Source: Pleurocapsales cyanobacterium LEGE 06147 (GTDB lineage: Bacteria; Cyanobacteriota; Cyanobacteriia; Cyanobacteriales; Xenococcaceae). Taken from it: a DNA stretch of 33,241 nt. The position numbers and the translations under genes were made by a program. Location of the stretch: positions 1 through 33,241 of the forward strand of contig JADEWQ010000064.1 of NCBI GenBank assembly GCA_015207585.1, in the 5' to 3' direction. The notes under the pieces are model-generated. The model was not told the origin of the DNA. It worked only from the letters and a program-made list of their open reading frames with translations, and did no database searches. This document shows positions 9,500-27,849 of this stretch, in pieces (the stretch's first letter is position 1; every line of letters starts with the position of its first letter).

Positions 9500-9740
9500 G
9501 GTCAACCTCATTTTGTCAATTTTAGATTTAAACATCGAGCGCGAATATAGGCAACAATAGGCTGTTAGACAAGCTTGGCTAGACTAATTGGTATCTACTG
9601 TACCAAATAGACATAACCCATAGTTCAATCAAAAAAATTCTTGTAGTTGATGTATTCTCTTAACTACAACCGAATTAAGGATAGGCTTATGATAGGGGAA
9701 AGTTTTTTAGCTATGCTCAAACAGTTACAGTAGATTGCTT

Positions 9741-11722: not shown

Positions 11723-12292
11723 ATGAGAAAGTTAATTGTTGCTACGGGTAATCCCGGTAAGCTGCGAGAGATGCAGGAGTATCTAACGGGTTTGAACTGG
11801 AAATTACAGTTAAAGCCTGCGGAGATAGAGATAGAAGAAACAGGGGCTACTTTTATGGAGAATGCTTGCTTAAAAGCGTCCCAAGTAGCAAAAGCAGTTG
11901 GAGAATGGGCGATCGCCGATGATTCGGGGTTGGCTGTGGACGCGCTAGATGGCGCACCCGGTATTTATTCGGCGCGTTATGGCAAGACAGATAAAGAAAG
12001 GATTGAAAGATTGCTAAAAGAATTAGGGCAACAGAAAAATAGAAAGGCTAAGTTTATCTGTGCCGTGGCGATCGCTCGTCTGGATGGTTCCATTGCTTTA
12101 CAGACTGAAGGAGTATGTCTCGGGGAAATTGTTGATTCCCCTCGCGGTGAGGGTGGATTTGGTTACGATCCAATTTTTTATGTCCCCCAAATGCAGCAAA
12201 CTTTTGCCGAAATGTCACCGCAAGTGAAGGGTGAGGTGAGTCATCGAGGGAAGGCTTTTGAGCAATTGTTGCCTCGGTTGCAAGAAATTTGA
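11723..12292 (+). CDS. rdgB: XTP/dITP pyrophosphatase (HAM1/RdgB)
   Basis: A 189-residue enzyme that hydrolyses non-canonical purine triphosphates (XTP, ITP, dITP) to monophosphate and pyrophosphate and so keeps them out of DNA and RNA. Motifs of the family: ATGNPGKLREM at residues 7-17; the Glu/Asn-containing ATFMENACLKA; ADDSGL (65-70) with the catalytic Asp pair; GAPGIYSARYG; GGFGYDPIFY near 150; and SHRGKAF near the C-terminus. The length is normal. It is about 110 bases downstream of the phosphohexomutase on the same strand, with repeats between them, so co-transcription is uncertain. Confidence 0.97.
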   Translation: MRKLIVATGNPGKLREMQEYLTGLNWKLQLKPAEIEIEETGATFMENACLKASQVAKAVGEWAIADDSGLAVDALDGAPGIYSARYGKTDKERIERLLKELGQQKNRKAKFICAVAIARLDGSIALQTEGVCLGEIVDSPRGEGGFGYDPIFYVPQMQQTFAEMSPQVKGEVSHRGKAFEQLLPRLQEI

Positions 12293-12302
12293 TTTTTTCT
12301 CT

Positions 12303-12355
12303 CGCCAAGGCGCAAAGGGCGCAAAATTTTTCTTGGCGTACTTTGCGCCTTGGCG
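12303..12355. repeat. 15-bp perfect inverted repeat after rdgB
   Basis: CGCCAAGGCGCAAAG (12303-12317) is mirrored exactly by CTTTGCGCCTTGGCG (12341-12355). The loop holds a related GCGCAAAATTTTTCTTGGCG stretch. Palindromes built from GCGCAAAG units are typical dispersed intergenic repeats in cyanobacteria. Placed 10 bases after the rdgB stop, it may also end or stabilise the rdgB transcript, although no T-run follows. Confidence 0.65.
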
Positions 12356-12442
12356 TGAGGCTAATTTCTAGCTAAGGTCGTTGGGAGAGTGTCAAACTAG
12401 TAATTGTACAGAACTAATTTCCTGGTTTTTTAGCAATAATTA

Positions 12443-14356
12443 ATGAAACTCGACCCTAAAATCCCTCCTGGCAGACTGCAAGATAAATGGGATTATTACA
12501 AAGACCACTGCCAGCTAGTAAGTCCGGCAAATAAACGCAAATACAACATCCTCATTGTCGGTACGGGTTTGGCAGGGGCTTCGGCTGCCGCTACTCTAGC
12601 AGAATTGGGTTATAACGTTAAGAGTTTTTGTATCCAAGATTCTCCCCGTCGCGCCCACAGTATTGCCGCCCAAGGGGGAATTAATGCCGCTAAAAACTAT
12701 CCGAATGATGGGGATACAGTTTGGCGTTTGTTCTACGACACGATCAAAGGCGGTGACTATCGTTCCCGCGAAGCTAATGTTTACCGTCTGGCACAGATTA
12801 GTAATAGTATTATCGACCAGTGCGTCGCCCAGGGCGTACCCTTTGCCAGAGAATATGGGGGGCTGCTTGCCAATCGTTCCTTTGGTGGGGCGCAGGTATC
12901 CCGTACTTTTTATGCTAGGGGACAAACGGGACAACAGTTACTGTTAGGGGCTTACAGTGCCATGTCCCGTCAAATTGAAGCAGGTAAAATCCAGATGTTT
13001 CCCCGTCGCGAAATGTTGGACTTGGTAGTAATTGACGGTAAAGCGAGGGGAATTGTCGTCCGTAACCTGATAACGGGAGACATCGAACGCTACGCCGGAG
13101 ATGCAGTATTGCTATGTACGGGAGGCTATAGCAATGTTTTTTATCTTTCTACCAATGCCAAAAACTCCAATGTTACGGCGGCTTGGCGGTGTTATAAGCG
13201 AGGCGCTTTTTTTGCCAATCCCTGTTTTACCCAAATTCATCCTACCTGTATTCCCGTTTCTGGGGATTATCAATCGAAATTGACTCTTATGAGTGAGGGG
13301 TTGCGCAATGATGGACGAGTTTGGGTACCCAAGCAATCGGGGGATAAACGCCATCCCAACCAGATTCCTGAAGCAGAAAGAGATTATTACTTAGAAACCA
13401 GATATCCTAGCTTTGGCAATCTCGTTCCCCGCGATGTTGCCTCTCGCAACGCTAAACAAGTAACCGATGAGGGAAGAGGAGTAGGCGAAACGGGATTAGC
13501 TGTCTATCTAGATTTTCGAGATGCGATCGCGAAGTTAGGTAAAAAGGCGATCGCCGAACGTTACGATAATCTTTTCCAGATGTACGAACGCATCACTGCT
13601 GAAAATCCTTATGAAGTACCGATGCGCATCTATCCTGCCGTTCACTACACTATGGGCGGTTTGTGGGTAGATTACAATCTGATGAGTACGATTCCTGGGT
13701 TGCACGTACTCGGAGAAGCTAACTTTTCCGATCACGGTGCCAATCGTTTGGGGGCGAGTGCCTTAATGCAAGGTTTAGCCGATGGTTATTTTATAATTCC
13801 CTATACTCTCGGTAATTATTTGGCAACGACGGAATTAATTCCTATAGATATTAATAACCCTTCTTTTGCCGAAGCCGAAGCAACCGTCAAAACTAAAACC
13901 GAAAAGCTTCTCAGTATTGAGGGAGAGAAAACCGTGATGGAATTTCATCGCCAATTAGGGAAGCTTGTTTGGGATTATGTAGGGATGTCTCGCCATCGGG
14001 AAGGATTAGAATATGTTATTGGCGCGATCGCTTCCTTGCGCGAAGAATACTGGCAAAATGTGAAAGTTGCTGGTAGTAGCGATAATCTCAATAAAAACCT
14101 CGAATTTGCGGGTAGAGTTGCCGATTTTCTCGAATTAGGCGAACTAATGGCACGAGATGCCCTACAACGAGAAGAATCCTGTGGCGGTCATTTTCGAGAA
14201 GAATACCAAACTCCAGAAGGAGAAGCCCAGCGAGATGACGAACATTTTGCTTATGTAGCTGCCTGGCAGTATCGGGGAGACGAACAAATTCCCCTTATGC
14301 ATGAGGAAGAGTTAAAGTTCGAGAACGTTAAGTTGACTCAACGTAGCTATAAGTAG
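12443..14356 (+). CDS. sdhA: succinate dehydrogenase/fumarate reductase flavoprotein subunit
   Basis: A 637-residue FAD-binding subunit of succinate:quinone oxidoreductase. The dinucleotide loop is [15 protein letters not shown] (37-50). The FAD-linking His is H72, in [14 protein letters not shown]. Catalytic features include HPTCIP, the [12 protein letters not shown] region, [24 protein letters not shown] and [14 protein letters not shown]. The C-terminal domain contains [12 protein letters not shown]. The overall pattern matches the SdhA type of Bacillus and cyanobacteria rather than E. coli SdhA. In cyanobacteria it links succinate oxidation to the thylakoid plastoquinone pool. The iron-sulfur subunit gene is not adjacent. 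No clear ribosome binding site precedes the ATG. Confidence 0.95.
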
Positions 14357-14388
14357 TTAGCTGGCTTTTCATCAGTGCTGCATCATGG

Positions 14389-15030
14389 ATGTATACTCAT
14401 AGAAAATTCATGAATGATAGAAGTCAATATCTTCTGAAACTGGCAAAGTGCAACGTAAAAGTTGATATTGCCAACCTAAAGGTCAAAGCAAAGCTGTATG
14501 GAAAAGCGATCGTCATGGGAAAAATTGTTGTCCAAGAAAACGATATTCCAAGTACAAGTCTGGCAATGCGTTCGTTACCGCACATCGATTTTGCTGATGC
14601 GTTTAAATCCCAGCTTCCAGGAAATCAACCTCAGAATATAGATTCAGTTACGCGAGCAATCTTTTTGAAGATGCCTGAGTGGATAACAGGATTGTTGGAG
14701 TTACGCAACATAATTGTTCGTCCATTGGGCTTGAAAACAACGATCGATCCAAATCCACCCAGCGATCGAGATAAACTTAAGCCAGGGGTTACAGTTGGTG
14801 TATTCGAGGTGCTTGACCGCAGGCTAGATGAAATCATGCTAGGTGAGGATGATAAGCACCTGGATTATCGGGTTTCCGTTCAATTAGAGCGTCAGGGGAA
14901 AGCCTGCTGGGTCATTGTTTCAACTGTGGTGCAATTCAATAATTGGCTAGGTCGCGCTTATTTTGTTCCAGTCAAACCAGTGCATAAGATCATTATTCCA
15001 GCCATGATGAGATATGGCTTGGAGAATTAA
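14389..15030 (+). CDS. DUF2867 family protein
   Basis: Up to 213 residues. The DUF2867 core covers about residue 50 to the end: HIDFADAFK, the helix PEWITGLLELRNIIVRPLGLKT, the strand pair EIMLGEDDKHLDYRVSVQLE, and the closing LGRAYFVPVKPVHKIIIPAMM. This pattern is well recognisable. Biochemical function is unknown for the family; the fold suggests a small-molecule-binding cavity. The start is uncertain: ATG codons at 14389, 14410 and 14515 are all possible and none has a good ribosome binding site; the domain would allow the last. It is the first of three same-strand genes (14.4-16.5 kb) and begins 32 bases after sdhA. Confidence 0.8.
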   Translation: MYTHRKFMNDRSQYLLKLAKCNVKVDIANLKVKAKLYGKAIVMGKIVVQENDIPSTSLAMRSLPHIDFADAFKSQLPGNQPQNIDSVTRAIFLKMPEWITGLLELRNIIVRPLGLKTTIDPNPPSDRDKLKPGVTVGVFEVLDRRLDEIMLGEDDKHLDYRVSVQLERQGKACWVIVSTVVQFNNWLGRAYFVPVKPVHKIIIPAMMRYGLEN

Positions 15031-15074
15031 TAAGCAATTCGTCGTGCCAAGTATCATAATAGTGCTGTTCCGTT

Positions 15075-15140
15075 TAAGGATTGTAGCTGATTTCTACGAT
15101 CGCTTCTCCTTGACGCAATTGTTCTAAGGCATCAGGTAGA
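15075..15140 (-). pseudogene. possible C-terminal gene fragment, antisense to flanking genes
   Basis: Read on the minus strand, the spacer encodes a very protein-like tail (ILPDALEQLRQGEAIVEIS, then YNP and a TAA stop at 15077-15075). There is no start codon, and the frame continues upstream only as shadow of the histidine phosphatase. It looks like the surviving end of a gene removed or overwritten at this junction. I cannot name the family. Chance remains possible for a stretch this short. Confidence 0.28.
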
Positions 15141-15752
15141 ATGACAGTCAGAAGTTGTCTCAAATTGCGATTTGTGAAGTACTTTAAAGAATCTGCATGT
15201 ATAGTCTTAGTGAGGCATGGAAAACCTACAATTCTACCACAAGAGTGGATTAGCGGTCGTGAATTACCTCAATTTGCGAATCGATATCAAGCAGCAGGTA
15301 TTCTTAGTAGTTCTCTACCCCCAGAAAATGTCAGGACACTTGCTCGATCGGCTAAGATGGTTTTCACTAGTGATATTTTTCGTGCCGTGCACTCTGCCCA
15401 AATCCTTGAGCCTACTGTTACCCCTGTAAGCAATTCCATCTTTCGGGAAATAGAGTTTTGGTTCGAGTTTCCAAGCAATCTTCGATTACCAGCCCAAATC
15501 TGGATTATTCTCGCTAGATTGCTCTGGGATTTTGGTTATTCCCATCACTCCCAATCTCAGGTTGATGCTAAAGAGCAGGCTAAAAAAGCGGCTGTATTCT
15601 TAGAGCAGCAATCCTGTGAGGCTGGCTCTGTAGTCTTAGTTGGTCACGGTATTACAAACCTGTTCATTGCTAGAGAGTTGAAAAAGCTAGGATGGCGTGG
15701 TCCTCGAATTCCTAATATGGCACACTGGGGTTGTACAATTTACAGTCTGTAA
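15141..15752 (+). CDS. histidine phosphatase superfamily protein
   Basis: A 203-residue protein of the phosphoglycerate-mutase-like fold. The phospho-accepting RHG motif is at R25-H26-G27 in IVLVRHGKP. The second Arg is R81 in SDIFRAVHSA, the likely general acid is E103 in FREIEF, and the second His is H169 in VVLVGHGITN. The core is therefore intact and probably active. The substrate is unknown. Residues about 108-135 (LRLPAQIWIILARLLWDFGY) are an unusually hydrophobic insert seen in some members. A GTG at 15174 is an alternative start nearer the first strand. It lies between DUF2867 and the amidotransferase-like gene on the same strand. Confidence 0.87.
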   Translation: MTVRSCLKLRFVKYFKESACIVLVRHGKPTILPQEWISGRELPQFANRYQAAGILSSSLPPENVRTLARSAKMVFTSDIFRAVHSAQILEPTVTPVSNSIFREIEFWFEFPSNLRLPAQIWIILARLLWDFGYSHHSQSQVDAKEQAKKAAVFLEQQSCEAGSVVLVGHGITNLFIARELKKLGWRGPRIPNMAHWGCTIYSL

Positions 15753-15815
15753 ATAATCGGTTGGGCATTCAGTAGTAAGTTGGTTTGCAGAAGTCGTATG
15801 GGTTGTGAAGGAATT

Positions 15816-16517
15816 ATGAAGAAAAAAGTTGCCCTTCTAGGAGAGTACACTCCAACGTTTCAACCCCACATCTCGACAGGTAAAGCTATTGAGCATTCAT
15901 GCTCATTGTTGTCGGTCGATCTTGAAGGAGTTTGGGTTTCAACTGAAAATATTAGTGATTCACTCTTTGATGTTTATTCTGGAATTTGGGTTGCCCCTGG
16001 TAGTCCTTACAAAAATATGGACAAGACGCTCTGGGCAATTCGTTATGCTCGTGAGAATGGCATTCCTTGTATCGGTACATGTGGCGGCTTTCAGCACATC
16101 ATCATTGAGTATACCCGCAACGTTCTAGGGTTTAAAGATGCCCAACACGCAGAGTACGATCCCTACGCCTCTGCACTTTTTATTTCTAAGCTTGACTGCT
16201 CACTGGTTGGGCGGGAAATGACCTTGAACTTTGTAGCGGAGTCGCACGTTGCAACCATTTATGGAGCGTTAACAGCGATCGAGCAATATTATTGCAATTT
16301 TGGGGTCAATCCTGAGTATATTCCACTTCTAAAGAATAGTTCTTTAAAGATTACAGGTTCGGATCGGGAGGGTGAAGTGCGAGTAATTGAGCTTTCCGCT
16401 CATCCATTCTTCATTGGGACATTGTTTGTGCCTCAAGCTCGTTCAACTGCTGAAATTCCCCATCCTTTGGTTACAGCATTTTTGAAGGTGATAGTTGAGA
16501 ATAGCAGCCCCACCTAG
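15816..16517 (+). CDS. CTP synthase C-terminal region-related protein (class I amidotransferase fold)
   Basis: About 233 residues from the ATG at 15816, preceded closely by GAAGGA; a TTG-type start 36 bases upstream is less likely. The protein starts like the CTP synthase glutaminase domain (KKKVALLGEYTPTFQPH) and has the nucleophile elbow GTCGGFQH with C89. The usual CTP synthase FHPE pair is replaced: HPFFIGTLFVPQ (196-207) has Val and Gln where the catalytic His and Glu should be. It is thus unlikely to be an ordinary glutaminase. This matches the family annotated as CTP synthase C-terminal region-related (seleno)protein, in which the active Cys can be selenocysteine; a redox or thiol role is an inference. 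Confidence 0.85.
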   Translation: MKKKVALLGEYTPTFQPHISTGKAIEHSCSLLSVDLEGVWVSTENISDSLFDVYSGIWVAPGSPYKNMDKTLWAIRYARENGIPCIGTCGGFQHIIIEYTRNVLGFKDAQHAEYDPYASALFISKLDCSLVGREMTLNFVAESHVATIYGALTAIEQYYCNFGVNPEYIPLLKNSSLKITGSDREGEVRVIELSAHPFFIGTLFVPQARSTAEIPHPLVTAFLKVIVENSSPT

Positions 16518-16622
16518 ATATCTTCAGTCAGTGTAAATAAACTTTGATAGGATTAATTCTACTTAATGGGTTGCCATTCCTTTCTGTAGTAGACTCGGAA
16601 GGGAAGCACGACAAAATCAAAC

Positions 16623-17597
16623 ATGAGCAAGAGAATCGCTACTGCTGTTATTTTCGGTGTAATTTTATTTTCGATCTTCTTGACTGGTTGTGGCGAACTC
16701 TTGGGGCGATCGCTCACTTCATTGTCGGTAGTTCCAGAAAATCCTGCCAATCAGCTAGTCTCCGTTGTGCCTGACGATGCAGAGGTAGAAAAAATAGCTA
16801 GCGAGTTTAAATTTACCGAAGGACCTTTGTGGCATCCCGATGGATTTCTGCTCTTCAGCGATATTCCCGCCGATACTATTTATCAATGGCAACCAAATCA
16901 GGAAGTAACGGTATTTCGTCGTCCTTCTGGTATGGCTAATGGCAACACTTTAGACCGACAAGGACGTTTGGTTACGGCAGAACATAGCAATCGTCGTGTA
17001 TCGAGAACTGAAGCAGACGGTACAGTAGTCACTCTTGCCAGCCAATATCAGGGAAAGCGACTGAATAGTCCTAACGATCTCGTAGTTAAATCCGATGGCA
17101 GTATTTACTTTACCGATCCTCCCTATGGGATTAAACCAGAACAGGAGGAACTGGGTTTTTATGGAGTTTATCGTCTTAATTCAGAAGGGGAATTAACTCT
17201 GTTAGTAGATGACTTTATTCGTCCTAACGGCATTACTTTTTCTCCAGATGAAAGCAAATTATATATTAATGACTCCGAAGCAGGGCACATTCGCGTTTTT
17301 GACGTGCAAGCCGATGGCACGTTAAGCAACGGACGTATCTTTGCCAAACTGAAAGACCCCAATAAAGAAGGCGTACCCGATGGCATGAAAGTGGATATTG
17401 AGGGAAATGTTTATAGTACGGGACCGGGTGGAATTTCGGTTTTCTCTCCCGATGGGGAATTACTCGCTCTTATTAAAGTTTCAGAAGTACCGGCGAACCT
17501 AGCTTGGGGAGATAGGGATTATCAAACTCTCTACATTACAGCCAGAACAGGTCTTTATCGTATTCGCCTGTCTATTCCAGGATTTGTTAATTATTAA
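16623..17597 (+). CDS. lipoprotein of the SMP-30/gluconolactonase family
   Basis: A 324-residue protein. The N-terminus is a lipoprotein signal with lipobox LTGC (C23), so the mature protein should be lipid-anchored outside the cytoplasm. The rest is a six-bladed beta-propeller of the SMP-30/gluconolactonase/LRE type. Metal-site segments are visible: FTEGPLWHPDG with the first Glu; SPNDLVVKSDGSIYFTDPPYG with the Asn; RPNGITFSPDESKLYINDSEAG with Asn and Asp. Members hydrolyse sugar lactones or related esters using Ca or Zn. The substrate here is unknown. It is separated from the preceding three genes by about 105 bases and seems independent. Confidence 0.92.
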   Translation: MSKRIATAVIFGVILFSIFLTGCGELLGRSLTSLSVVPENPANQLVSVVPDDAEVEKIASEFKFTEGPLWHPDGFLLFSDIPADTIYQWQPNQEVTVFRRPSGMANGNTLDRQGRLVTAEHSNRRVSRTEADGTVVTLASQYQGKRLNSPNDLVVKSDGSIYFTDPPYGIKPEQEELGFYGVYRLNSEGELTLLVDDFIRPNGITFSPDESKLYINDSEAGHIRVFDVQADGTLSNGRIFAKLKDPNKEGVPDGMKVDIEGNVYSTGPGGISVFSPDGELLALIKVSEVPANLAWGDRDYQTLYITARTGLYRIRLSIPGFVNY

Positions 17598-17636
17598 CTG
17601 AGAGCGATGGCGAACACCTGGCATACTTGTGAGGAA

Positions 17637-18296
17637 CTACTGGACAAGTCCCTCCAAAGTTACGCCAACAACTCGATAATCAGAATCTTGTCGCAGTTTC
17701 ATTAGAGCAGCTTGCGCTCTTGGGTCATCAAAATGTCTTAAGACTCTTGCTGTTTGCGCTCGAATTGCGACTGCTTCGGAGGTGGCTAGGGAAAGAAGGA
17801 TTGTCAACGCATCTACCTCTTGGGGAGTTCCCTGTAACTGTCCCAAAGTAGCGATCGCTGTTTCTCGAACGACAGGGTCATCTCCTTCAACTCCCCAACG
17901 GCACATCTGTAAAATAATTTCAGGACGATTGGTTCCTTCCATAGCAGCTAAAATACTTTGTCGCACAAGCCAGTGGGAGTCCCGTTCAAATAATTGCAAT
18001 AGATGAGGAAAAGATCTCTGTCCGTATTTCGCCAAGGAATTAGCAGCTTCCGCTCTAACATTGGGATCGCTGTCGTATTTGATTAAGTCTAGTAATGCTT
18101 CAAAAGCTTCCTCTGTTCGCTTGCTTCCCAAACCCATAGCCACAAAGGAACGAATGATAAATTCTTGGTCACGCATCCGTCGTCTCAGTAAAGGGACGAC
18201 CACGGAAGGGAGGTGGTACCTCAATTCAGTAATCGCTTTCATGCGGTCTTGAGGATTGGGACTATCGATGTAGGCTTCAATTTGATGTAGTTCCAT
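17637..18296 (-). CDS. HEAT-repeat protein
   Basis: About 219 residues from the ATG at 18296 (MELHQIEAYI). The upstream in-frame start at 18341 adds a poorly conserved-looking 15 residues. The whole chain is helical HEAT/PBS-lyase-type repeats, for example RRMRDQEFIIRSFVAMGLGSK, DSDPNVRAEAANSLAKYG, DSHWLVRQSILAAME, DDPVVRETAIATLGQLQG and AVAIRAQTARVLRHFDDP. About six units are visible. Such proteins in cyanobacteria include phycobilin lyases of the CpcE/F class, but also many scaffolds; the extra lyase signatures are not evident. It converges with the SMP-30 gene 39 bases away. Confidence 0.88.
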   Translation of the reverse strand: MELHQIEAYIDSPNPQDRMKAITELRYHLPSVVVPLLRRRMRDQEFIIRSFVAMGLGSKRTEEAFEALLDLIKYDSDPNVRAEAANSLAKYGQRSFPHLLQLFERDSHWLVRQSILAAMEGTNRPEIILQMCRWGVEGDDPVVRETAIATLGQLQGTPQEVDALTILLSLATSEAVAIRAQTARVLRHFDDPRAQAALMKLRQDSDYRVVGVTLEGLVQ

Positions 18297-18361
18297 GAAA
18301 TTCTCAGAAAATTTAATTATCTTAATATTATGTTTACACAAATTTACAATACGTGAGATGA

Positions 18362-18568
18362 GAACTGAGCAGTCGGTTTGTCATTAGTCAATGGTGGGAT
18401 AGACAAGAGCTGTCTTTGACAACGATAAAAGATCGTCTCAAATTTTCTTTTGAGATAGCTGATTACTATCATCAAGATCTCGATTGGAAAACAACCAGTG
18501 CCGACCCGATCGCAGATAAAAAGGGGAGATGGTGGTTGCACGTAGTTAAAGAAGGAGAAATCAATTAA
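18362..18568 (+). pseudogene. start-less reading frame, probable C-terminal gene remnant
   Basis: The plus strand is open for 68 codons, from a TGA just before 18362 to the TAA at 18566-18568. There is no ATG or GTG; one internal TTG near the middle would give about 50 residues. The translation is protein-like and tryptophan-rich: FVISQWWDRQELSLTTIKD, then FSFEIADYYHQDLDWKTTS, then KKGRWWLHVVKEGEIN. I cannot assign a family. Because the end is intact and the start missing, it reads as a truncated gene. An overlapping minus-strand frame (18344-18658) is Cys/Phe-rich and less convincing. Confidence 0.35.
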
Positions 18569-18654
18569 AAGACATCTGAAAAAGATATCTGGCATACAGA
18601 AACGGTTTCGCACTGATTGCGATCGTGTTCTTTCTAAAAGACTGGTGCAATCGG

Positions 18655-18741
18655 TCAATAGGGAGTCACTCCTTCAGGTTGCTCGTAGTGCTTCAAGTTT
18701 TCCAAGATTTGATGCAGAGCGGAAATAGACAAAACAAACAA
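18655..18741 (-). pseudogene. short C-terminal gene remnant
   Basis: On the minus strand a 28-codon frame ends in TGA (18657-18655) and reads SISALHQILENLKHY, then EQPEGVTPY. It is preceded in frame by TAA at 18744-18742, with only a TTG in between. The composition is that of a genuine protein tail, but it is too short to identify. The rest of the spacer (18745-18886) is AT-rich and holds the presumed promoter of the CBS-GAF kinase; I see nothing else in it. Confidence 0.25.
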
Positions 18742-18886
18742 TTAAAATCGACAAGATAAGTAAATTACCAATTATAGTTTGACAAATTAGTTCAAACGAA
18801 AAAATCTTTCTTAGGAAGTGTAAATATACAACAAGAACAAGGCAAACCTTTTCTCAATCGTCTACAGCAAAGACTAGCGATTAATC

Positions 18887-21091
18887 ATGCCACAGCAAGA
18901 CCCATCTATATCTCTATTGAGCTTAGAGCCTGCAATCGATCGCCGTCCTCTGACAGTGTCGCCCGATACCCCATTATTAGAGGTCATTACCATCATGGGC
19001 AAGGCACACAGCAGTTGCGTGCTTCCCGGTTTAGGTCTACCCCTAGATGCATTGCTAATTAGTCAAGCCCGCGGCAGCACGATTTTGGTGACTCAAGGGT
19101 CGCAGTTATTAGGTATCTTCACTCAAAAAGAAGCAGTAGAACTAATCGCCTCGGGTAGGAATTTAGATCTACTGACAATTGCCCAAGTCATGAGTCCACC
19201 AGTTATTGTCTTAACTGAATCTGAGGAGTCCGATATTTTTGAAGCACTGTCATTGCTGCGCCAATACCAAATCTCTCACCTCCCCGTCGTGGACGAGCGA
19301 GGACAACTGACTGGTTTGGTTACTTATAACAGTATTCACCAACCATTGCCTCTTGATGAATTATTAAAATCAAGGCAGTTAGCAGAAGTGATTTCTACTT
19401 CACTAATTTCTGCACCAGAAACCACTTCAATATTGGATTTAGCTAGGCTGATGGCTCAACATAAGGTGGATTTTGGTGTTCTTACCAAGGCTCCAGACCA
19501 TTCCCTACCCATAGGAATAGTGGCACAACCCGATCTCATCGAGCTTTTTGCTCTAGAGTTAGACCTATCACAGATACAAGCTCGGACGGTCATGAGTACG
19601 CCATTGTTATATTTAGATGCCGATGAATCCGTTCTAGCTGCCTACTGGCAAATGCAGCAAGAAAAAGTGCAACAAGTTATTGTATCCGAGCCATCTGGAA
19701 GTTTATTAGGTATTGTTACCTTCTGTAGCTTCTTAACAACCCTTGAGTTAGAAGCAATGCGAAAGACGGTTGAGCAACTACAGCAATCCATCGAGCGGTT
19801 TGAGGCTCAAAAAAGACACCCCTCACCCAGCAGCTTTGTTACTCCCGAACTAGAGGTGCCAGAAACTCGAAGCGAATTATTAGAACAGCTCAAGTGCAGC
19901 CGCATTTTAACTGCCATGGCACTGCGCATTCGCGAATCCCTTAATTTAGATGAAATTCTCAAGACGGCAGTAGACGAAGTGCAGCAATTTCTTAAGACTG
20001 ACCGGACTATCGTCTATTGTTTTAATTCGGACTTCAGTGGGAAAGTCGTAGTCGAATCCGTTGCTGAAGGCTTACGACCGGCTCTCAATAGCACGATTCA
20101 AGACACCTGCTTTGGCAAAAACTATGCTGAAGCCTACAAACAAGGACGAACCCAAGTTATAGAAGATATCTATACGGCTGGTTTAACCCAATGCCATATC
20201 GATATTCTCGTTTTCTACGATATCCGTGCCAGTCTTGTCGTTCCGATTCTTCAAGGAGAGCATCTATGGGGATTGTTGTGTGCTTATAACTGTTCTGGAC
20301 CCCGGAGTTGGCGAGATTTTGAACTCGATCTGCTCAAACAATTGGCAACCCACATGGCGATCGCCATTCAGCAGTCCGAACTGTATCAGCAACTGGAGAC
20401 CGAACTAGCCGAACGTAAACGTGCAGAGGAGCAGTTGAAATTATCCCTTAGAGAAAAAGAAATTTTACTCAAAGAAGTTCACCACCGTGTCAAAAATAAT
20501 TTACAAATTATTTCCAGTTTGTTGAGGTTGCAATCTGACTACATTCAAGATAAACGGGCTTTGGCTTCCTTCAAAGATAGTCAGAATCGGATACGTTCCA
20601 TGGCTCTAATCCACGAAAAGCTTTATCAATCAAAAGACCTGGTCAAAATCGACTTTGCCGAGTATCTTCGGGATCTGACTTCTAATTTGCTACATTCCTA
20701 TGGAGCTAATGCACAAGAAATTACGTTAAATATTAATGTTAACGAGATCTGGTTCACCATAGATACGGCAATTTCTTGCGGTTTAATTATCAATGAACTC
20801 GTTTCTAACTCTCTCAAACACGCTTTTCCCCATGCTAGTTCCGAAAATAAAGTGGAAATTGATATTCGCCCCATCAGTGACAATAATTTTCGGCTAGTTG
20901 TCAGCGATAATGGAATAGGATTTCCCCAAGATATAGATTTCCAAAATACTGAATCTTTAGGGCTGCAGTTGGTCTGTACCTTTGTCGAACAGCTGGAAGG
21001 AACTATCGAACTAGAACTGACTGGCGGTACAACATTTATAATTACATTTGAGGAGCTAGGCGCGGCGGGAAGAATCAAAAAAAATGGTTAA
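18887..21091 (+). CDS. CBS-CBS-GAF sensor histidine kinase, predicted DXCF cyanobacteriochrome
   Basis: A 734-residue soluble kinase. Order: two CBS pairs (about 15-155 and 165-285; repeats of [13 protein letters not shown] and [14 protein letters not shown] type); a short coiled coil (about 286-312); a GAF domain (about 345-500); a coiled linker; a HisKA_2 domain with H533 in EVHHRVKNN; and a HATPase with N-box [13 protein letters not shown] (635-647), DNGIGFP (674-680) and LGLQL. The GAF domain carries DTCF (C408) and CH (C436-H437), 28 residues apart. These are the two bilin-linking cysteines of DXCF cyanobacteriochromes, followed by the typical [15 protein letters not shown] strand. Likely a blue/green-type light sensor, with CBS domains perhaps adding adenylate sensing. 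The stop overlaps the next gene by 8 bases. Confidence 0.9.
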
Positions 21092-22202
21092 GGCAAAAAT
21101 TTTAGTCGTTGAAGACCAAAGAATTGTTGCTAAAGATATAGCCAAGAGATTAGAAAGTTTAGGTTATTCGGTAGTAGCTACTGTTTCTTCTGGAGAAGAA
21201 GCCATTGAAAAGGTTGCCGAAACAACTCCGGATTTAGTCTTAATGGATATTCGCTTGAAAGGTGAAATGGACGGAATAGAAGCCGCCGAAAAAATTCGTG
21301 ATGATTTTGATATTCCCGTTATCTATTTAACGGCTTATGCCGATGAAAACACTTTACAACGCGCTAAAATCACCGAACCCTTTGGCTATATTGTTAAGCC
21401 TTTTGATGAAAAAGATTTACATACAGCAATTGAAATTGCCTTACGCAGGCGTTTGGCAGAAGCAGCCATTCGCGTGGCTTTAAAAAAAGAAAAAGAATTG
21501 AGCGAGCTGAAATCTCGCTTTTGGTCAATGGTTGCCCATGAATTTCGCGTTCCCATGACAACCATATTATCTTCAGCCCAATTACTCGAACATCATCAAC
21601 ACGAATTACCAGAAGAAAAAAGGCGGGAATTACTATTTTTAATCCAAAAAGCGATTAGATCTATGAACCAGCTATTAGATGATGTTTTAGATCTTAATAA
21701 AGTAGAAGTAGGTAGCTTAGAATTTAATCCCGAACCTTTAGATTTAGAAGAATTTTGTCAGCGAATAGTTGAAGAAATACAATTTAATGCTAGCTCAAAA
21801 CATCGAATTATTTTTAATAAGCATAATGGATGTACTAATGCTTGTTTAGATCGAAAACTTTTGTGGCATATTCTTAGTAATTTGCTAGTAAATGCTATTA
21901 AATATTCGCCTCAAGGCGGTCATGTATATTTGGAACTTGCTTGTCCAGATAATCAAGCTATCTTTAAAGTTCAAGACAAGGGTATTGGTATTCCTCCAAT
22001 GGCTCAAGAGCATTTATTTGAGCCATTTCGACGAGCTGAAAATGTTGGCAATATCCCCGGTACTGGACTCGGACTGACAATGGTCAAAAAGTGTTTGGAT
22101 TTACATAATGGAAAAATTGATGTCCAAAGCACTGTTGGTGTAGGAACGACGGTTACGGTTACACTTCCTTTAAATAAAGGGGTTTCCGTTAATTCCAGTT
22201 GA
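21084..22202 (+). CDS. response regulator-histidine kinase (REC-HisKA-HATPase)
   Basis: A 372-residue protein. The N-terminal receiver domain (about 4-120) has the acidic pair E10-D11, phosphoacceptor D55 in [15 protein letters not shown]83 and K105. A coiled linker leads to HisKA with H152 in [12 protein letters not shown] HATPase follows with N-box [13 protein letters not shown] (265-277), DKGIGIP (299-305) and GTGLGL (327-332). It is soluble with no sensor module, so its kinase is presumably controlled by phosphorylation of its receiver. The natural donor is the overlapping CBS-GAF kinase upstream: the ATG at 21084 lies within that gene's last codons, which implies translational coupling. 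No DNA-binding output is present; a further regulator must lie elsewhere. Confidence 0.95.
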
Positions 22203-22525
22203 ACGCTATCTGAGATCGGCAACGATCGCGCCTCACTGTAACCCCTGTCAAACCGGTTTAGTTAAGGCAGCGAGGGTATTATCCAAAATTTCGATGCTAT
22301 GAATTTAGATTATTGTTAATTATCCCTGTCCGGCTTGAGCAGCCAAAGCGATCGCCGTATTATATCAAATTTGTATAATTGCACATACTTAGGCTTTTCA
22401 ATCACAATCTTTCTCCTCCTGCTTCCCCTGCTCTCCTCACCAAAAAGTATGGCTATTCAACTGGATTTGATTTTATAAAATCGTTGTGTTGAACTCTAAA
22501 TTTGAACTCAAGCTAGGAGTAAAGC
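22203..22525. other. gene-free spacer, about 320 bases
   Basis: No complete gene is visible. On the minus strand two short in-frame pieces look like protein tails: NTAIALAAQAGQG then stop (22361-22320), and IHSIEILDNTLAALTKPV then stop (22304-22248). They share a frame but are separated by stops and may be a decayed gene or chance. A C/T-rich filler (about 22410-22440, CTCCTCCTGCTTCCCCTGC type) is of a kind common between cyanobacterial genes. Confidence 0.4.
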
Positions 22526-23287
22526 TTATGACTTGCTCATTGTTTTTAGCACATTAATATACTGGGCGATCGCATGATCTCTAAACCGTTGAGAGAGGAA
22601 GTTTACACTAAATCGTCGACCTATACGGAACTCCTTGTCTACATGGCGATAGCCTTGCCACCACCTCGGCAACTCCGGCACGATATCCATGCCATGAACA
22701 AACCGATAATTATCAGGAACCCTCCGATTAAACGATTCGCGAAATCCATCGTTCCCAACTTTTGGCGCACCAAAAGTGTAACCTTCTATAGACACTTGGT
22801 TAGAAAAATTGTACTGAATGTCGACAGCACACAAAGTTGCTAATGCTCCACCTAAGCTGTGTCCCGTTGTAGTAACGCTAGAAAGTTCGCGATTCCTGAT
22901 ATACTCGTGAATTCGCTCCCGCACCGAAAAATAAGCTCTAATAAATCCACGGTGCATTAATGCTCCGGAATCGCTTTTTTCTTCATAGGGATAGACTTTT
23001 TCCTGTTCGGCGACAATTTCTTCACGAATTACTTTTTGTTCAAATTCTGCTCTTTCCTGTTGAGTATCGAGGTTAGTTTCCCAGTCAAAGGATGATTCAC
23101 TGCCACGAAATACGATGATAATTTCTGTACCGTCTCGCAAGATGGCACATTGGGTGTCGGTACTATCATCACTAATTAAAACGGGATCTTCTGTCAATCC
23201 GTTAAACTTAAGATCTTTGGAAAAATTTTGATAAATTTCTTGGCAGAAAATCGCATACTTTACTGCTTTGGAATAATCAACTGCCAT
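22526..23287 (-). CDS. class 3 lipase family protein
   Basis: A 253-residue alpha/beta hydrolase. The family pattern is complete: IIIVFRGSES with the oxyanion-side segment (about 56-65); the nucleophile elbow TGHSLGGALATL with S144; YTFGAPKVGN; the catalytic Asp D201 in HGMDIVPELPR; and the His H215 in YRHVDKEF. There is no signal peptide or membrane segment, so it is cytosolic or membrane-peripheral. It probably hydrolyses acyl esters of glycerolipids; the natural substrate is not known. The ATG at 23287 starts the domain directly. It is monocistronic and convergent with the kinase pair. Confidence 0.93.
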   Translation of the reverse strand: MAVDYSKAVKYAIFCQEIYQNFSKDLKFNGLTEDPVLISDDSTDTQCAILRDGTEIIIVFRGSESSFDWETNLDTQQERAEFEQKVIREEIVAEQEKVYPYEEKSDSGALMHRGFIRAYFSVRERIHEYIRNRELSSVTTTGHSLGGALATLCAVDIQYNFSNQVSIEGYTFGAPKVGNDGFRESFNRRVPDNYRFVHGMDIVPELPRWWQGYRHVDKEFRIGRRFSVNFLSQRFRDHAIAQYINVLKTMSKS

Positions 23288-23465
23288 AACAGCTCCTTCT
23301 CCGTCGGAGTCTTTTAATAAATTGGAATTATTGAAAAGTTAGGAAATTCCCCAGCAATTTACTGTTTTTATACAATTACCTGAATTGTATCGCCTGCTAT
23401 GTGTGGCGTTTGATAAAAAATGTATCTAGATTATCTATAACTTGAAGATGTCTCGATCTCAAAAT

Positions 23466-24443
23466 TTACTTAGTTTGAAAGATATTTTGGACCATTGTTT
23501 TATCTACACTCCCAGCAGCTTTATCTAACTCTGCAATTTCGTTTGAGTCCAAATACCATCCCAAAGCACCGATATTTTCTCTCGCCTGTTCTACAGTCTT
23601 TGCTCCGGGAATGGGAATGGTTCCTTTACAGATACACCAGTTGATTGCTACCTGGGACATGGTTTTATGTCGCGATCGCGCTACTTCTCGCAAACAGCTT
23701 AAGAGTGGTTGAATATTTGGTAATAATTGCCGAAAGAGTAGACCTCGAATACCTCTAGGCAAAGAGTCTTTCTCAGAGTATTTTCCGGTCAAAAGTCCCA
23801 AGGCTAAAGGACTGTAGGCAATCAATCTTATTCCCAGCTCATCACAAACATCTTTGACTCCTAGTTGAGTAACGGGATATGTAGACAGTAGGGAGTACTG
23901 AACTTGTAAAGTGCTAATAGGAACGCCGCGATCGGCAAACTTTTTATACACTTTTTTGAGCCGTTTCGGTCCATAATTCGACAAACCTACTCCCTTTACC
24001 AATCTTTGCTCGTAAAGGTCGGCAAGACCATCCAAAAGTGCCCATTCCTGCCAGGGAGCATAGTTAGCCGTAGACCAGTGCATCTGTACCAAATCTACGT
24101 TTTTTCCCAGACGTTTGGCAGAACATTGACAAGCTCTTACCATTGATTTGCGTGTCAATCTCCAGGGATAGACAGCAAGCTTAGTAGCGATGCAAATATT
24201 TTCTTTGTTCGAACCAGAATATTCCCTGAAAAATCTTCCCAAAAGTTTCTCGCTGCGTCCATTCAATCGCCCAGTTCCATAGGAATCCCCCGTATCGAAT
24301 AAGGTTACGCCGTTGCTCACACAAAGGTCAAAAACGGCTTGCAGTTGCTTATCCATACTTTCGTCGTATCCCCAGAGCAATCGGTTGCCCCATGCCCAAG
24401 TTCCGCAGCCCATATTTGGAAGGGTGATGTGGCTAGTTTGCAT
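23466..24443 (-). CDS. aldo/keto reductase
   Basis: A 325-residue NADPH-dependent TIM-barrel oxidoreductase. The catalytic tetrad is present: D50 and Y55 in TLFDTGDSYGTG, K88 in CIATKLAVYP, and H122 in DLVQMHWST. NADPH-binding segments follow: KGVGLSNYGPKRL; LQVQYSLLS; LIAYSPLALGLLTGKYS; and the 2'-phosphate loop IPIPGAKTVEQARENIGAL. The WGWGN-like N-terminus (GCGTWAWGNRLLWGYD) is typical of plant and cyanobacterial members. It reduces aldehydes or ketones in the cytosol; the substrate is unknown. It is divergent from the DUF29 gene with an 79-base shared promoter region. Confidence 0.95.
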   Translation of the reverse strand: MQTSHITLPNMGCGTWAWGNRLLWGYDESMDKQLQAVFDLCVSNGVTLFDTGDSYGTGRLNGRSEKLLGRFFREYSGSNKENICIATKLAVYPWRLTRKSMVRACQCSAKRLGKNVDLVQMHWSTANYAPWQEWALLDGLADLYEQRLVKGVGLSNYGPKRLKKVYKKFADRGVPISTLQVQYSLLSTYPVTQLGVKDVCDELGIRLIAYSPLALGLLTGKYSEKDSLPRGIRGLLFRQLLPNIQPLLSCLREVARSRHKTMSQVAINWCICKGTIPIPGAKTVEQARENIGALGWYLDSNEIAELDKAAGSVDKTMVQNIFQTK

Positions 24444-24522
24444 CTTTACTAAGTATATTTCCTACACTAAAACTACCTACGCTATAGTCTAATTACATCA
24501 TTTCTCTGACTACAACACGCTA

Positions 24523-24987
24523 ATGCTCGATTCTAAACAACTTTACGAACAAGATTTTTATTTGTGGATTACAACCACAATTCAAAAAATACGTAATCGC
24601 GATTTTGATTCGGTTGAGTGGGAAAATGTATTAGAGGAATTAGAAGATTTGAGGAATGAAAGAAAGAACGAACTAGAAAGTCGTTTAATGATTTTGTTCG
24701 AGCATTTGCTTAAACTCGCTTACTGGCATGAAGAGATAGCCTACAATGAGCGCGGATGGAAAGGAACGATTCGCGAGCAAAGAAAGCGGCTAAATCGGCT
24801 ATTAAAAAAAAATCCGAGTTTAAAACCCTATTTAATTGAAGTATTCGATGAAATGTATTTGGATGCTAGAGATATAACCATCGATAAAACAGGATTGCCG
24901 CCTGATACCTTTCCCATTAAACCTATCGTGACAGTAGAACAAGCTCTAGATGAAGCTTATCTCCCTGTATCATTCCCGCATCTGTAG
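24523..24987 (+). CDS. DUF29 domain protein
   Basis: A 154-residue all-helical protein with the full DUF29 pattern: LYEQDFYLWITTTIQKIR; DFDSVEWENVLEELEDL; ESRLMILFEHLLKLAYW; RGWKGTIREQRKRLNRLL; NPSLKPYL; and the closing TGLPPDTFPIKP with VEQALDEAYLP. The family is expanded in cyanobacteria and its function is unknown. It is soluble. The gene is about 110 bases upstream of the PD-(D/E)XK gene on the same strand. DUF29 genes often occur in genome-variable regions, so a link with mobile or defence functions is possible but not shown here. Confidence 0.93.
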   Translation: MLDSKQLYEQDFYLWITTTIQKIRNRDFDSVEWENVLEELEDLRNERKNELESRLMILFEHLLKLAYWHEEIAYNERGWKGTIREQRKRLNRLLKKNPSLKPYLIEVFDEMYLDARDITIDKTGLPPDTFPIKPIVTVEQALDEAYLPVSFPHL

Positions 24988-25099
24988 CAAAAACCTGAAA
25001 ATTCCCTTTTCCCCTAATCTTAATAATTTCTTCGATCGATCGAATAAAAGAATAAATTTACAACCTAAAGAAATGAAATAGAGATTAATAATTAACTTT

Positions 25100-25750
25100 A
25101 TGGCAATCACCGCTATCACGGAAGCGATTAAAACCTTAACAGAAGCAGAACAACGATTTAAGCTTGCTCGTACAGAAGAAGAAGTATTTTTTACAGAATG
25201 GCGTATCGATTTACCGACGTTAACAGAAATAGATAAAACCCAACTAAATCAACTAAGACAACGGTATCTTTATCAACGAGCCGAAAATCAATTGTTAGAA
25301 GCAACCGTTATGCTTTTATTCGCTTCTCCGCTTTTAACCATTGCGGGTTTGTTCGATCCTCCCTTTAAAGTTCGTTCAGAGGAATCTATACAGCTTATCT
25401 TCAATGACGGGGAAGAAGTGTTACAGGGAAGAATAGATGTATTAGTGTTGCAAAATCAGCTTTGGGTGGTGGTCTTAGAATCAAAAAAAACGGCCCTGTC
25501 AGTATGGACTGCCTTACCTCAAACCCTTGCTTATTTGACAGCAAATCCACAACCTAAATTGCCTAGCTTTGGAATGATGACCAATGGAGATGAGATTATT
25601 TTTGTTAAATTAACTCAAGGAGAACAGGTAAAATATGATGTTTCTAGGGTATTTTCGCCCTTTATTTCTAATCAAGAACTTTATCAGGTTGTCCAAATTT
25701 TGCGCTCTATTGGTCATACCATTAGACTTCTTGCAGAAGTCAGGGAATAG
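25100..25750 (+). CDS. solitary PD-(D/E)XK nuclease-like protein (HsdR N-terminal type)
   Basis: A 216-residue protein. A helical N-terminal part (1-65, AEQRFKLARTEEEVFFTEW) leads into a restriction-endonuclease-like core. The core motif is GRIDVLVLQNQLWVVVLESKK: D113, then E127 and K129 of the ExK pair. QTLAYL (Q141, Y145) follows as the QxxxY motif typical of HsdR/RecB-like nucleases. TNGDEIIFVKL comes after. In type I enzymes this domain is joined to a helicase; here the protein ends after it, and no helicase, methylase or specificity gene is near. Such solitary proteins are annotated in cyanobacteria as restriction endonuclease subunit R. Nuclease activity is likely from the motif but its target is unknown. 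Confidence 0.85.
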   Translation: MAITAITEAIKTLTEAEQRFKLARTEEEVFFTEWRIDLPTLTEIDKTQLNQLRQRYLYQRAENQLLEATVMLLFASPLLTIAGLFDPPFKVRSEESIQLIFNDGEEVLQGRIDVLVLQNQLWVVVLESKKTALSVWTALPQTLAYLTANPQPKLPSFGMMTNGDEIIFVKLTQGEQVKYDVSRVFSPFISNQELYQVVQILRSIGHTIRLLAEVRE

Positions 25751-25914
25751 GGAATAGATATAAGTCATAAAGCTTTACTTAATAAATCTAATTTTTCTAT
25801 CTCTTTACTAAAAGGAATTCAACTAACTTCCCAACAAATTGTTCGGCAAGCAGGACTTCTCGATTAAGCTAAAAATTATAGAAATTATTTGCAAAATTAT
25901 AAGGGTAAACTTCA

Positions 25915-27693
25915 TTGGTTCAACAACCAAAACTACAAGAAACTTCATCGGTGGGATCGCTCCAGCGCGTGCTGGGAAGTTTAAGTTCGTATCGTTGGAT
26001 TGCGTTGGGAGCGTTAGTTAGTTCGTTGCTGTTAACGGCTGCCTACGCTGTCACTCCGCAACTGTTTCGGTGGGGAATCGACGAAGGCATTATTCAACAA
26101 AACTTACAAATCGTGCTTTATAGTGCGGGTGCAATGGTGATTGCGGCGATCGCGCGCGGTTTGTTTAATTTTGGGCAAAGTTTCTGGGCAGAAGCCGCGT
26201 CTCAGGGTGTTGCCTACGACCTTAGAAATAAGATTTTTAGCAAGATTCAACATCTCAGCTTTAGCTACCACGACCAAGCACAGACCTCGCAATTGCTGAC
26301 TCGCGTTACCAGCGATATCGAGCAAATCCGCACGTTTCTCAGTACGAGTTTGATGCAAGTTATCAGTGCTCTCGTGACGTTAGCGAGTATTGCTGTAATT
26401 TTGTTGCTCATGAATTGGGAACTGGCATTGATTACCCTAACGGTAGTGCCAATATCAGGGTGGTTAATGGCACGTTTTCTCAGTCGCAATAGTAAGCTAT
26501 TTCGATTGATACAAGAACAACTGGGCGATCTCAATGCTGTCTTACAAGAAAATTTGTTTGGCGTACGAGTAGTAAAAGCATTTGTGCGCGAGTCGGCAGA
26601 AAAGTCACGCTATACGACTGCGAATAATATTCTGGTCGGAACCAATATGAAAACCATTCGTGCCATCCGCAATACCTTCCCGTTTATGTTTTTACTGAGT
26701 AATTTGGTGACGGTGGTGGTGATTGGTTATGGTGGTGCGGCAGTAATTGAAAATCGTTTTTCTATTGGCGAACTGGTAGCATTTAACTCTTATCTGCTAT
26801 TGATTTTTCAACCCGTTCTGCTAATAGGCTTTGCGGCTCCCGCGATCGCCCAAGCGGCTGCGTCTGCCGAACGGGTTTATGAGGTGGTAGATGCCCAGAT
26901 TGAAATTCGCGATCGCCCCAATGCTATCCCGTTTGAAACTTGTGGAGGCAGAATTACCTTTGAAAATGTTTCTTTCCGCTATCCTGGGGCTACTCGGGAA
27001 GCAATTCAAGGAGTATCTTTTGAAACCAAACCTAAAGAACTGATTGCCATTTTAGGAATGACGGGTTCTGGTAAAAGCACGATAGTAAACTTGATTCCGC
27101 GCTTTTATGATGTTACGTCGGGGGCAATTCGCATTGACGGAAGAGATGTGCGAGATTTCACTCTAGCCAGTTTGCGATCGCACATTGGCATCGTGTTTCA
27201 AGAGATCACTTTATTTTCTGGGACTATCCGCGAGAACATTACCTATGCCAAGCCAGATGCACCATTAGAGCAAGTAATTGAGGTTGCTAAAACCGCGCAA
27301 ATTCATGACTTTATTATCAGCTTACCCGATGGGTACGAAACAATTGTAGGAGAAAGAGGTGTGGGCTTATCCGGCGGACAGAAACAAAGGATTGCGATCG
27401 CTCGTACTCTATTGACAGATTACAGCATTCTCATCTTGGATGACAGCACTTCTGCCGTAGATGCGAAAACTGCTGCTCAAATTCAAGAGGAACTCGATTA
27501 TCTGATGCGCCAAAAAACCTGTACTGCCTTTGTCATTGCCCAACGAATCGGTACTATTAAAAATGCCGATCGCATTTTATTAATGGATAAAGGAAAACTA
27601 GTAGCCCAAGGAACCCATGAAGAGTTGATGGGACATAGCCCGCTTTACGGTGCTATTTTGGAATCTCAGGTAAAGCAACCAGCCCAGAGATAA
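25915..27693 (+). CDS. ABC exporter half-transporter with a degenerate ATP site
   Basis: A 592-residue type IV ABC exporter half: six transmembrane helices (about 28-315) and a nucleotide-binding domain (about 345-585). Walker A is GMTGSGKST (381-389) and the signature LSGGQ is canonical (485-489). The Walker B carboxylate is Asp instead of Glu (LILDDSTSAVD, D510), and the switch His is Gln (IAQRIGT, Q543). These changes mark the non-hydrolysing site of heterodimeric exporters such as TM287/288. It begins at TTG (25915) with AAGGG 9 bases before; no nearer ATG exists. The partner is the next gene. The substrate is unknown, probably a lipid or hydrophobic compound. Confidence 0.93.
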   Translation: MVQQPKLQETSSVGSLQRVLGSLSSYRWIALGALVSSLLLTAAYAVTPQLFRWGIDEGIIQQNLQIVLYSAGAMVIAAIARGLFNFGQSFWAEAASQGVAYDLRNKIFSKIQHLSFSYHDQAQTSQLLTRVTSDIEQIRTFLSTSLMQVISALVTLASIAVILLLMNWELALITLTVVPISGWLMARFLSRNSKLFRLIQEQLGDLNAVLQENLFGVRVVKAFVRESAEKSRYTTANNILVGTNMKTIRAIRNTFPFMFLLSNLVTVVVIGYGGAAVIENRFSIGELVAFNSYLLLIFQPVLLIGFAAPAIAQAAASAERVYEVVDAQIEIRDRPNAIPFETCGGRITFENVSFRYPGATREAIQGVSFETKPKELIAILGMTGSGKSTIVNLIPRFYDVTSGAIRIDGRDVRDFTLASLRSHIGIVFQEITLFSGTIRENITYAKPDAPLEQVIEVAKTAQIHDFIISLPDGYETIVGERGVGLSGGQKQRIAIARTLLTDYSILILDDSTSAVDAKTAAQIQEELDYLMRQKTCTAFVIAQRIGTIKNADRILLMDKGKLVAQGTHEELMGHSPLYGAILESQVKQPAQR

Positions 27694-27849
27694 GAGAACA
27701 GTTATTAGTTATCAATTATCAATTGTCAATTTTTTTAATATGAAATAGAAAAAAGAATGCTACATATAGATCGCCCAGTCTCCCCGTCCCCTCGTCTCCC
27801 CGTCAACGATTTGTCGCAAACAATTAAGTATTTCATATAAGGAGTAGGA

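Follow-up and report, generated by a model that had tools for sequence, protein, structure and literature searches.

A predicted DXCF cyanobacteriochrome kinase with a four-CBS disc and a conserved neighbouring kinase in Pleurocapsales cyanobacterium LEGE 06147

A sensor kinase encoded by Pleurocapsales cyanobacterium LEGE 06147 is very probably, on the basis of domain, family and tree comparisons, a real, conserved, functional DXCF cyanobacteriochrome kinase. The preferred reading, to which a probability of about 0.65 is assigned, is that of a two-input sensor kinase acting together with the kinase encoded next door, in which a DXCF GAF domain would perceive light, a helix would relay the signal, the phosphoryl group would be transferred to the REC domain of the neighbour, and nucleotide at the CBS domains would bias the output. 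By sequence the light part of the kinase is near certain. The gene lies on contig JADEWQ010000064.1, and the window, i.e. the whole stretch of DNA that was analysed, comprises positions 1-33,241 of its forward strand (33,241 nt). Features are listed in Table 1.

Table 1. Features of the kinase gene and its partner gene, with positions in the window
Feature	Position	Strand	Basis or remark
Sensor kinase, CBS x4 - GAF (DXCF cyanobacteriochrome) - HisKA_2 - HATPase_c (predicted)	18887..21091	+	ATG start, 734 aa; Pfam, model
Four-CBS disc, residues 14-290	18926..19756	+	Pfam CBS; gamma-AMPK-like fold in model; VIA
CBS1 ribose-type motif GIFTQKE, residues 76-82	19112..19132	+	Family comparison
CBS3 ribose-type motif GIVAQPD, residues 210-216	19514..19534	+	Family comparison
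GAF, cyanobacteriochrome type, residues 353-494	19943..20368	+	Pfam, PDB comparison, tree, Foldseek
DTCF motif; C408, predicted second (C10) thioether cysteine	20102..20113	+	Aligned to TePixJ DPCF (C494)
C436-H437, predicted canonical bilin cysteine and its His	20192..20197	+	Aligned to TePixJ C522-H523
HisKA_2 dimerisation/phosphoacceptor domain, HHRVKNN, residues 530-605	20474..20701	+	Pfam
HATPase_c, residues 633-722	20783..21052	+	Pfam
Partner gene REC-HisKA-HATPase_c, 372 aa	21084..22202	+	Pfam; overlaps kinase gene by 8 nt

The domain composition of the kinase was upheld as the first-pass annotation had given it (four CBS domains, GAF, HisKA_2). All four Pfam domain scores exceeded the gathering cut-offs, with 104.6 bits for CBS, 87.6 for GAF, 108.1 for HisKA_2 (PF07568), and 51.2 for HATPase_c (PF02518). 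Two CBS stretches pass Pfam on their own, and the alignment of a model of residues 1-320 with tetra-CBS discs, spanning residues 9-300, supports the presence of four CBS domains. Assignment to the HisKA_2 kinases rests on an HRxKNN-type H-box and an HATPase_c domain, both of which were found. In the full-length model an unbroken helix (residues 477-550) runs from the GAF domain into the H-box, while the pTM of this model, 0.56, leaves it uncertain where the CBS disc sits relative to the kinase.

A scan of named genomes returned 13 loci, namely eight full-length relatives, one split gene and four partial matches. The full-length relatives belong to Oculatella sp. LEGE 06141, Leptolyngbya sp. 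FACHB-321 and FACHB-8, Myxacorys californica, Phormidium tanganyikae, Phormidium tenue FACHB-886, filamentous cyanobacterium CCP5, and Cyanobacteria bacterium FACHB-502. The family as assembled here consists of 18 distinct proteins including that of the window, 17 of them complete, with no pair above 95% identity; the other 16 complete proteins are 55-68% identical to the window protein, and the split gene was scored on its two pieces in all counts over 18. Within the order, the compact HisKA_2 form was detected in 9 of 388 genomes, the source genome included (E <= 1e-150). The other eight genomes with a full relative at this threshold fall into six other families and none into that of the source organism, a patchy distribution. 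Relatives covering the CBS and GAF parts (residues 1-503) were found in 151 of the 388 genomes, again including the source genome, at E <= 1e-75, a threshold that CBS or GAF alone should not reach, judging from single-domain matches; among the matches listed for this count, G064, G086 and G040 span only about residues 207-503, with the CBS1-2 part aligning apart, and G036 is a fragment. These relatives are mostly longer, and the open frames of the matches listed range from 590 to 3091 aa. A rare architecture, considered for CBS plus GAF, was thus rejected, and the "unusual combination" of the first-pass annotation survives in part: the pairing of CBS with a cyanobacteriochrome-type GAF is common, whereas the compact HisKA_2 form is uncommon but conserved. 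The split gene comes from a MAG deposited under Chloroflexaceae, in which one short contig bears broken copies of the kinase and partner genes (L064 / L077); the kinase gene has a frame change within the GAF domain, and the partner gene is disrupted too.

Alignment of the kinase GAF domain with TePixJ (3vv4) was free of gaps between the cysteines, with DTCF opposite DPCF and QCH opposite ECH. The 28 residues from C408 to C436 equal the C494-to-C522 spacing of the TePixJ chain, exactly as had been read from the sequence at first pass. The available text of PMC6955287 identifies C494 and C522 of TePixJ as the two thioether cysteines, includes H523 and Q526 in the pocket, and describes the photoproduct D-ring as twisting towards Q526. 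In the alignment, H523 corresponds to H437 of the kinase and Q526 to I440, which is invariant in the 17 complete family proteins; with Q526 so replaced, the colour of the kinase GAF may differ from that of TePixJ. C408, C436, H437 and the H-box HHRVKNN are invariant in 18/18 family members, all of which also carry the motif D[TSNK]CF, and D406 and F409 are invariant in the 17 complete proteins. Two further cysteines of the GAF domain, C465 and C469 (LLCAYNC, 20279-20293), are likewise invariant in the complete proteins; TePixJ has a counterpart of C469 and none of C465.

Searches of the PDB matched the GAF domain to cyanobacteriochrome or phytochrome chains with E-values down to 2.5e-52 (best match 6oap). 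Leaving aside FD15 and those chains whose sole label is "histidine kinase" or "sensor protein", the recognised chains among the best 60 of the 63 matches are presumably all bilin GAFs. Foldseek TM-scores, normalised by target, were 0.79-0.90 for TePixJ chains and up to 0.95 for miRFP670nano, and the best sequence relatives in the PDB (6oap and the miRFP nano proteins) are without the second Cys. The DXCF, XRG (WXDXXL) and NpR3784 lineages are set out in PMC11284453, whose available text gives the NpR3784 lineage as being without the second Cys and having Val at the W position. Membership in the XRG lineage was ruled out since IQDTCF stands where WXDXXL would align, and membership in the NpR3784 lineage was ruled out by the presence of the second Cys and of Ile at the W position. 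In some other family members that position is Val or Leu, with the Cys kept in all.

A tree of 61 GAF domains was built from 55 of 85 GAF matches and six references; repeats, the split L024/L064, loci numbered L069 or higher, and matches spanning fewer than 130 positions of the model were left out. The window family formed one clade of 17 rows (support 100/99). Its closest neighbours were three DXCF GAFs from other cyanobacteria (93/84), followed by the C36 GAF of the source genome, with motifs DPCF and PCH (84/81). Three XRG references grouped separately with 6oap and miRFP670nano, which have no second Cys (98/93). Six GAFs of the source genome without the cysteines fell outside (the second GAF of L005, L010, L013, L014, L015 and L017). 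Other Cys-poor domains, i.e. the GAFs of the C224 and C203 paralogues from the same genome and those of L011, L025, L026, L029 (second GAF), L039, L040 and L045, lay inside the cyanobacteriochrome group, a placement such as secondary losses would give. The placement of TePixJ relative to the window family is left unsettled by this tree. Clustering with non-bilin GAFs, which the first-pass annotation had named as the outcome that would speak against a cyanobacteriochrome, was not what the tree returned, the neighbours of the family being DXCF GAFs; on this basis, with the PDB matches and the conservation in 18/18, a non-bilin GAF was rejected. From alignment, tree and conservation, the identification of the domain as a DXCF cyanobacteriochrome is well supported. 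The source genome should also be able to supply phycocyanobilin, since it contains a PcyA gene (365.7 bits, cut-off 206) and two genes for heme oxygenase.

Three further kinases of the same genome were compared. C36 (L080:2161-3996) is a GAF-GAF-HisKA kinase of 612 aa with DPCF and PCH in its first GAF; it is a probable second DXCF cyanobacteriochrome, judged from these motifs, and its GAF is the nearest relative from the source genome in the tree. The C224 paralogue (L078:3246-9991; CBS4-GAF-PAS-PAS-HisKA_2, 1107 aa) has HY in place of the DXCF cysteine motif and CQ in place of CH, and its gene is directly followed by a REC-GGDEF-EAL gene and then by REC-HisKA_2. C203 (L079:3131-7963; 1611 aa) contains CBS, two GAF, PAS, HisKA and HATPase domains, and its later GAF (928-1088) is without both bilin cysteines. 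Elsewhere in the window are a gene for manganese-stabilising protein (PsbO; 8645-9535), a gene for a protein related to the C-terminal region of CTP synthase (NF004836, 283.1 bits, cut-off 260; 15780-16517), and, upstream of the kinase on the opposite strand, one for an NblB-related HEAT-repeat protein that scores below the cut-off (86.5 bits, cut-off 300; 17637-18341).

The model of residues 1-320 (mean pLDDT 88.4) takes the fold of a tetra-CBS disc, with Z-scores of 17-23 to solved discs. With VIA, the CBS model matched SSO3205-AMP (3ddj) at Z 23.2 (rmsd 3.3, 262 aligned residues), MJ1225 at Z 21.9, and AMPK gamma and its fungal homologues at Z 17.0-20.1; Foldseek also groups it with tetra-CBS discs. 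At occupied CBS sites the ribose-binding Asp is the last residue of the motif G-h-x-T/S-x-x-D. In the window protein this position is E82 in CBS1, S149 in CBS2, D216 in CBS3 and S281 in CBS4, i.e. Glu replaces Asp in CBS1, and the CBS3 motif has Ala for Thr. Across the family, an acidic residue stands at CBS1 in 17 of 18 members and at CBS2 or CBS4 in none, while CBS3 has Asp in 10 and His in 8. Among 36 sampled CBS-GAF relatives, Asp was found at CBS1 in 34, at CBS2 in none, at CBS3 in all 36, and at CBS4 in two (plus one Glu), in a sample of best-scoring loci that leans towards the query. It comprises the 46 of 52 rows remaining after removal of repeats, minus 10 of the window family, and excludes proteins that were unaligned at the C408 column and also at one or both of the CBS1 and CBS3 sites. 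In the first GAF that follows the CBS domains, 32 of the 36 have both cysteines (28 with His after the Cys and 4 with Tyr). From the Asp pattern, the wider class looks as if two of four sites were kept, and the window family looks as if it has partly relaxed that two-site pattern. Mean pairwise identity among 17 proteins was 57% for CBS1-2, 54% for CBS3-4, 42% for the linker and 63% for HATPase, with HisKA_2 (79%) and GAF (78%) the most conserved domains of the kinase.

Beyond what had been noted at first pass, the kinase has a conserved partner kinase next door. The partner gene adjoins the kinase gene in 18/18 family loci, and at 16 of 17 measured loci the gap is -8 to +16 nt, the remaining one being 109 nt, with start codons chosen by hand. 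The predicted phosphoryl acceptor of its REC domain is Asp55, in LVLMD; this Asp is present in 17/17 complete proteins and the HisKA His in 18/18. The best NCBIfam match would give the partner the name of a scytonemin kinase, which was rejected at 272.7 bits against a cut-off of 865. Partner-type genes occur in 125 of the 388 genomes (E <= 1e-95) and are thus far commoner than the window family. In 32 partner-type loci, a subset of the matches listed in the partner searches, a HisKA_2 gene lies just upstream in 27, or in 20 of 25 without the seven of the window family; two of the five loci that have none are longer proteins matched in the kinase part only. Ten of these 20 upstream kinases were checked over the part of the sequence covered, and nine have PAS sensors and one a GAF sensor. 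From these counts, the arrangement seems to be a general cyanobacterial module of a HisKA_2 kinase and a REC-gated second kinase, here fitted with light and CBS input. Flanking ORFs were clustered in search of further conserved neighbours that might point to the output, and among the clusters listed (at most the 14 largest), no neighbour other than the kinase and partner was common to all 18 loci; the flanks were of unequal length, and for the window ORFs starting at 12000-28000 were clustered. A gene of 323-334 aa recurs in four family loci, one of which has it at a different distance; many of the smaller clusters are antisense ORFs overlapping the kinase and partner genes.

The CBS disc is where the preferred reading is most exposed. 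If in this family the disc no longer bound a ligand and served as a platform for structure or dimerisation, the signal would come from the GAF domain alone, and this has a considerable, though lesser, chance of being correct. The lower identity of the CBS domains (54-57%, against 78% for the GAF), the Glu and the missing Thr at CBS1 and CBS3 of the window protein, the His at CBS3 of eight members, and the uniform lack of an acidic residue at CBS2 and CBS4 are what such a platform would predict, but CBS1 has stayed acidic in all but one of the 18, Asp at CBS1 and CBS3 of the relatives with none at CBS2 is the pattern expected if two sites were selected, and the best match of the gamma-AMPK-like fold is an AMP complex. 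The ligands of CBS domains vary, and a ligand other than adenylates (e.g. c-di-AMP, Mg2+, S-adenosylmethionine or another nucleotide) is unlikely here, although MgtE and IMP dehydrogenase appear next to AMP binders among the CBS profile matches; entries of SSO3205 and AMPK gamma with bound AMP, ADP or ATP are among the top whole-disc structural matches, even if a shared fold shows no ligand. Adenylate sensing by the disc, suggested at first pass, is therefore retained as a hypothesis drawn from the model: the fold and the Asp residues of the relatives speak for it, and the substitutions and lower identity in the window family speak against it.

It is very improbable that the GAF domain is a remnant that no longer carries a chromophore, or that it holds a bilin but shows no photochemistry. 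One or both cysteines are missing in C224, in the matched GAF of C203 and in 4 of the 36 relatives, so that such losses do occur in related proteins, but within the family both cysteines and H437 are kept by every member, D406 and F409 by every complete one, and the genome encodes bilin enzymes. As for output, cyanobacterial kinases often have unlinked partners, and the five of 32 partner-type loci that have no HisKA_2 neighbour would suit a HisKA_2 kinase phosphorylating an unlinked regulator, the adjoining REC gene being merely co-transcribed; adjacency throughout the family and at 20 of 25 other loci, and the PAS or GAF sensors of all ten checked upstream kinases, make this improbable. Gene adjacency is not proof of phosphotransfer to the partner REC, but its conservation in 18/18 makes a light-driven relay likely, as the two-input reading with its partner kinase supposes.

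Comparison with known systems places the kinase between several of them. The TePixJ GAF (PDB 3vv4, 4glq) shares its fold, its DXCF and CH cysteines and their ungapped 28-residue spacing, at about 40-42% identity in structural alignment. TePixJ differs in that its chains are annotated as methyl-accepting chemotaxis proteins, whereas here the output is HisKA_2 and a CBS disc is N-terminal; it has Gln where the kinase has Ile, and in sequence the kinase GAF scores higher against 6oap and miRFP670nano. The dual-sensor histidine kinase 6oap, which we take to be PPHK, is likewise a photosensor kinase and the best GAF sequence match, but has DQYF for DXCF, and no CBS match was seen in its chain. AMPK gamma, MJ1225 and SSO3205 likewise have four CBS domains in a single chain, and the discs listed align over about 236-262 residues at Z 17-23, yet they are only 11-20% identical to the CBS part of the window protein; unlike them, the window family has an acidic ribose residue only at CBS1 and partly at CBS3, and its disc is joined to a photoreceptor kinase. 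Other pairs of HisKA_2 with REC-HisKA-HATPase have the same two genes with PAS or GAF sensors in place of the CBS disc and DXCF GAF. CBS domains in sensory kinases are also represented by the multi-sensor kinase SPLC1_S082010 of Arthrospira (PMC7291507) and by those counted in kinases of thermophilic cyanobacteria (PMC9953108), and the available text of these two sources mentions no cyanobacteriochrome GAF in the same protein. In the titles and abstract starts of the open-licence PMC literature, no description of a fusion of CBS with a cyanobacteriochrome was found.

In the proposed mechanism, all steps after the chromophore are inferred. Phycocyanobilin or, after isomerisation, phycoviolobilin would be bound by the canonical C436, and C408 would form a further, light-labile thioether at C10. 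The dark state would then absorb blue light, and the photoproduct probably green or teal. Isomerisation of the bilin and the change in the C408 adduct would move the helix of residues 477-550, through which the light state of the GAF domain could reach the HisKA_2 H-box and set autophosphorylation. The phosphoryl group would then pass to Asp55 of the partner REC, as the conserved gene adjacency suggests, and the partner kinase, so changed, would hand the signal to a regulator encoded elsewhere. Least certain is that one or two of the four sites of the CBS disc, CBS1 and perhaps CBS3, may bind an adenine nucleotide; the ligand state of the disc may bias the kinase through two helices (288-310 and 328-350) and a loose linker (313-326). 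Rather doubtful, and put forward tentatively, is the broader proposal that a gamma-AMPK-like adenylate disc using CBS1 and CBS3, coupled to a DXCF GAF, defines a widespread cyanobacterial class that would compute light colour with energy charge in one polypeptide, of which the window protein would be a compact HisKA_2 form driving a REC-gated neighbour kinase.

For cyanobacteria, the colour of the light has to be weighed against the energy gained from photosynthesis. The energy part of the kinase is hypothetical but worth testing, and the conserved partner gene names a candidate phosphoryl acceptor. If the CBS disc does bind adenylates, the kinase would be a single-chain coincidence detector of light and energy, from a class represented in 151 of the 388 genomes searched within the order.
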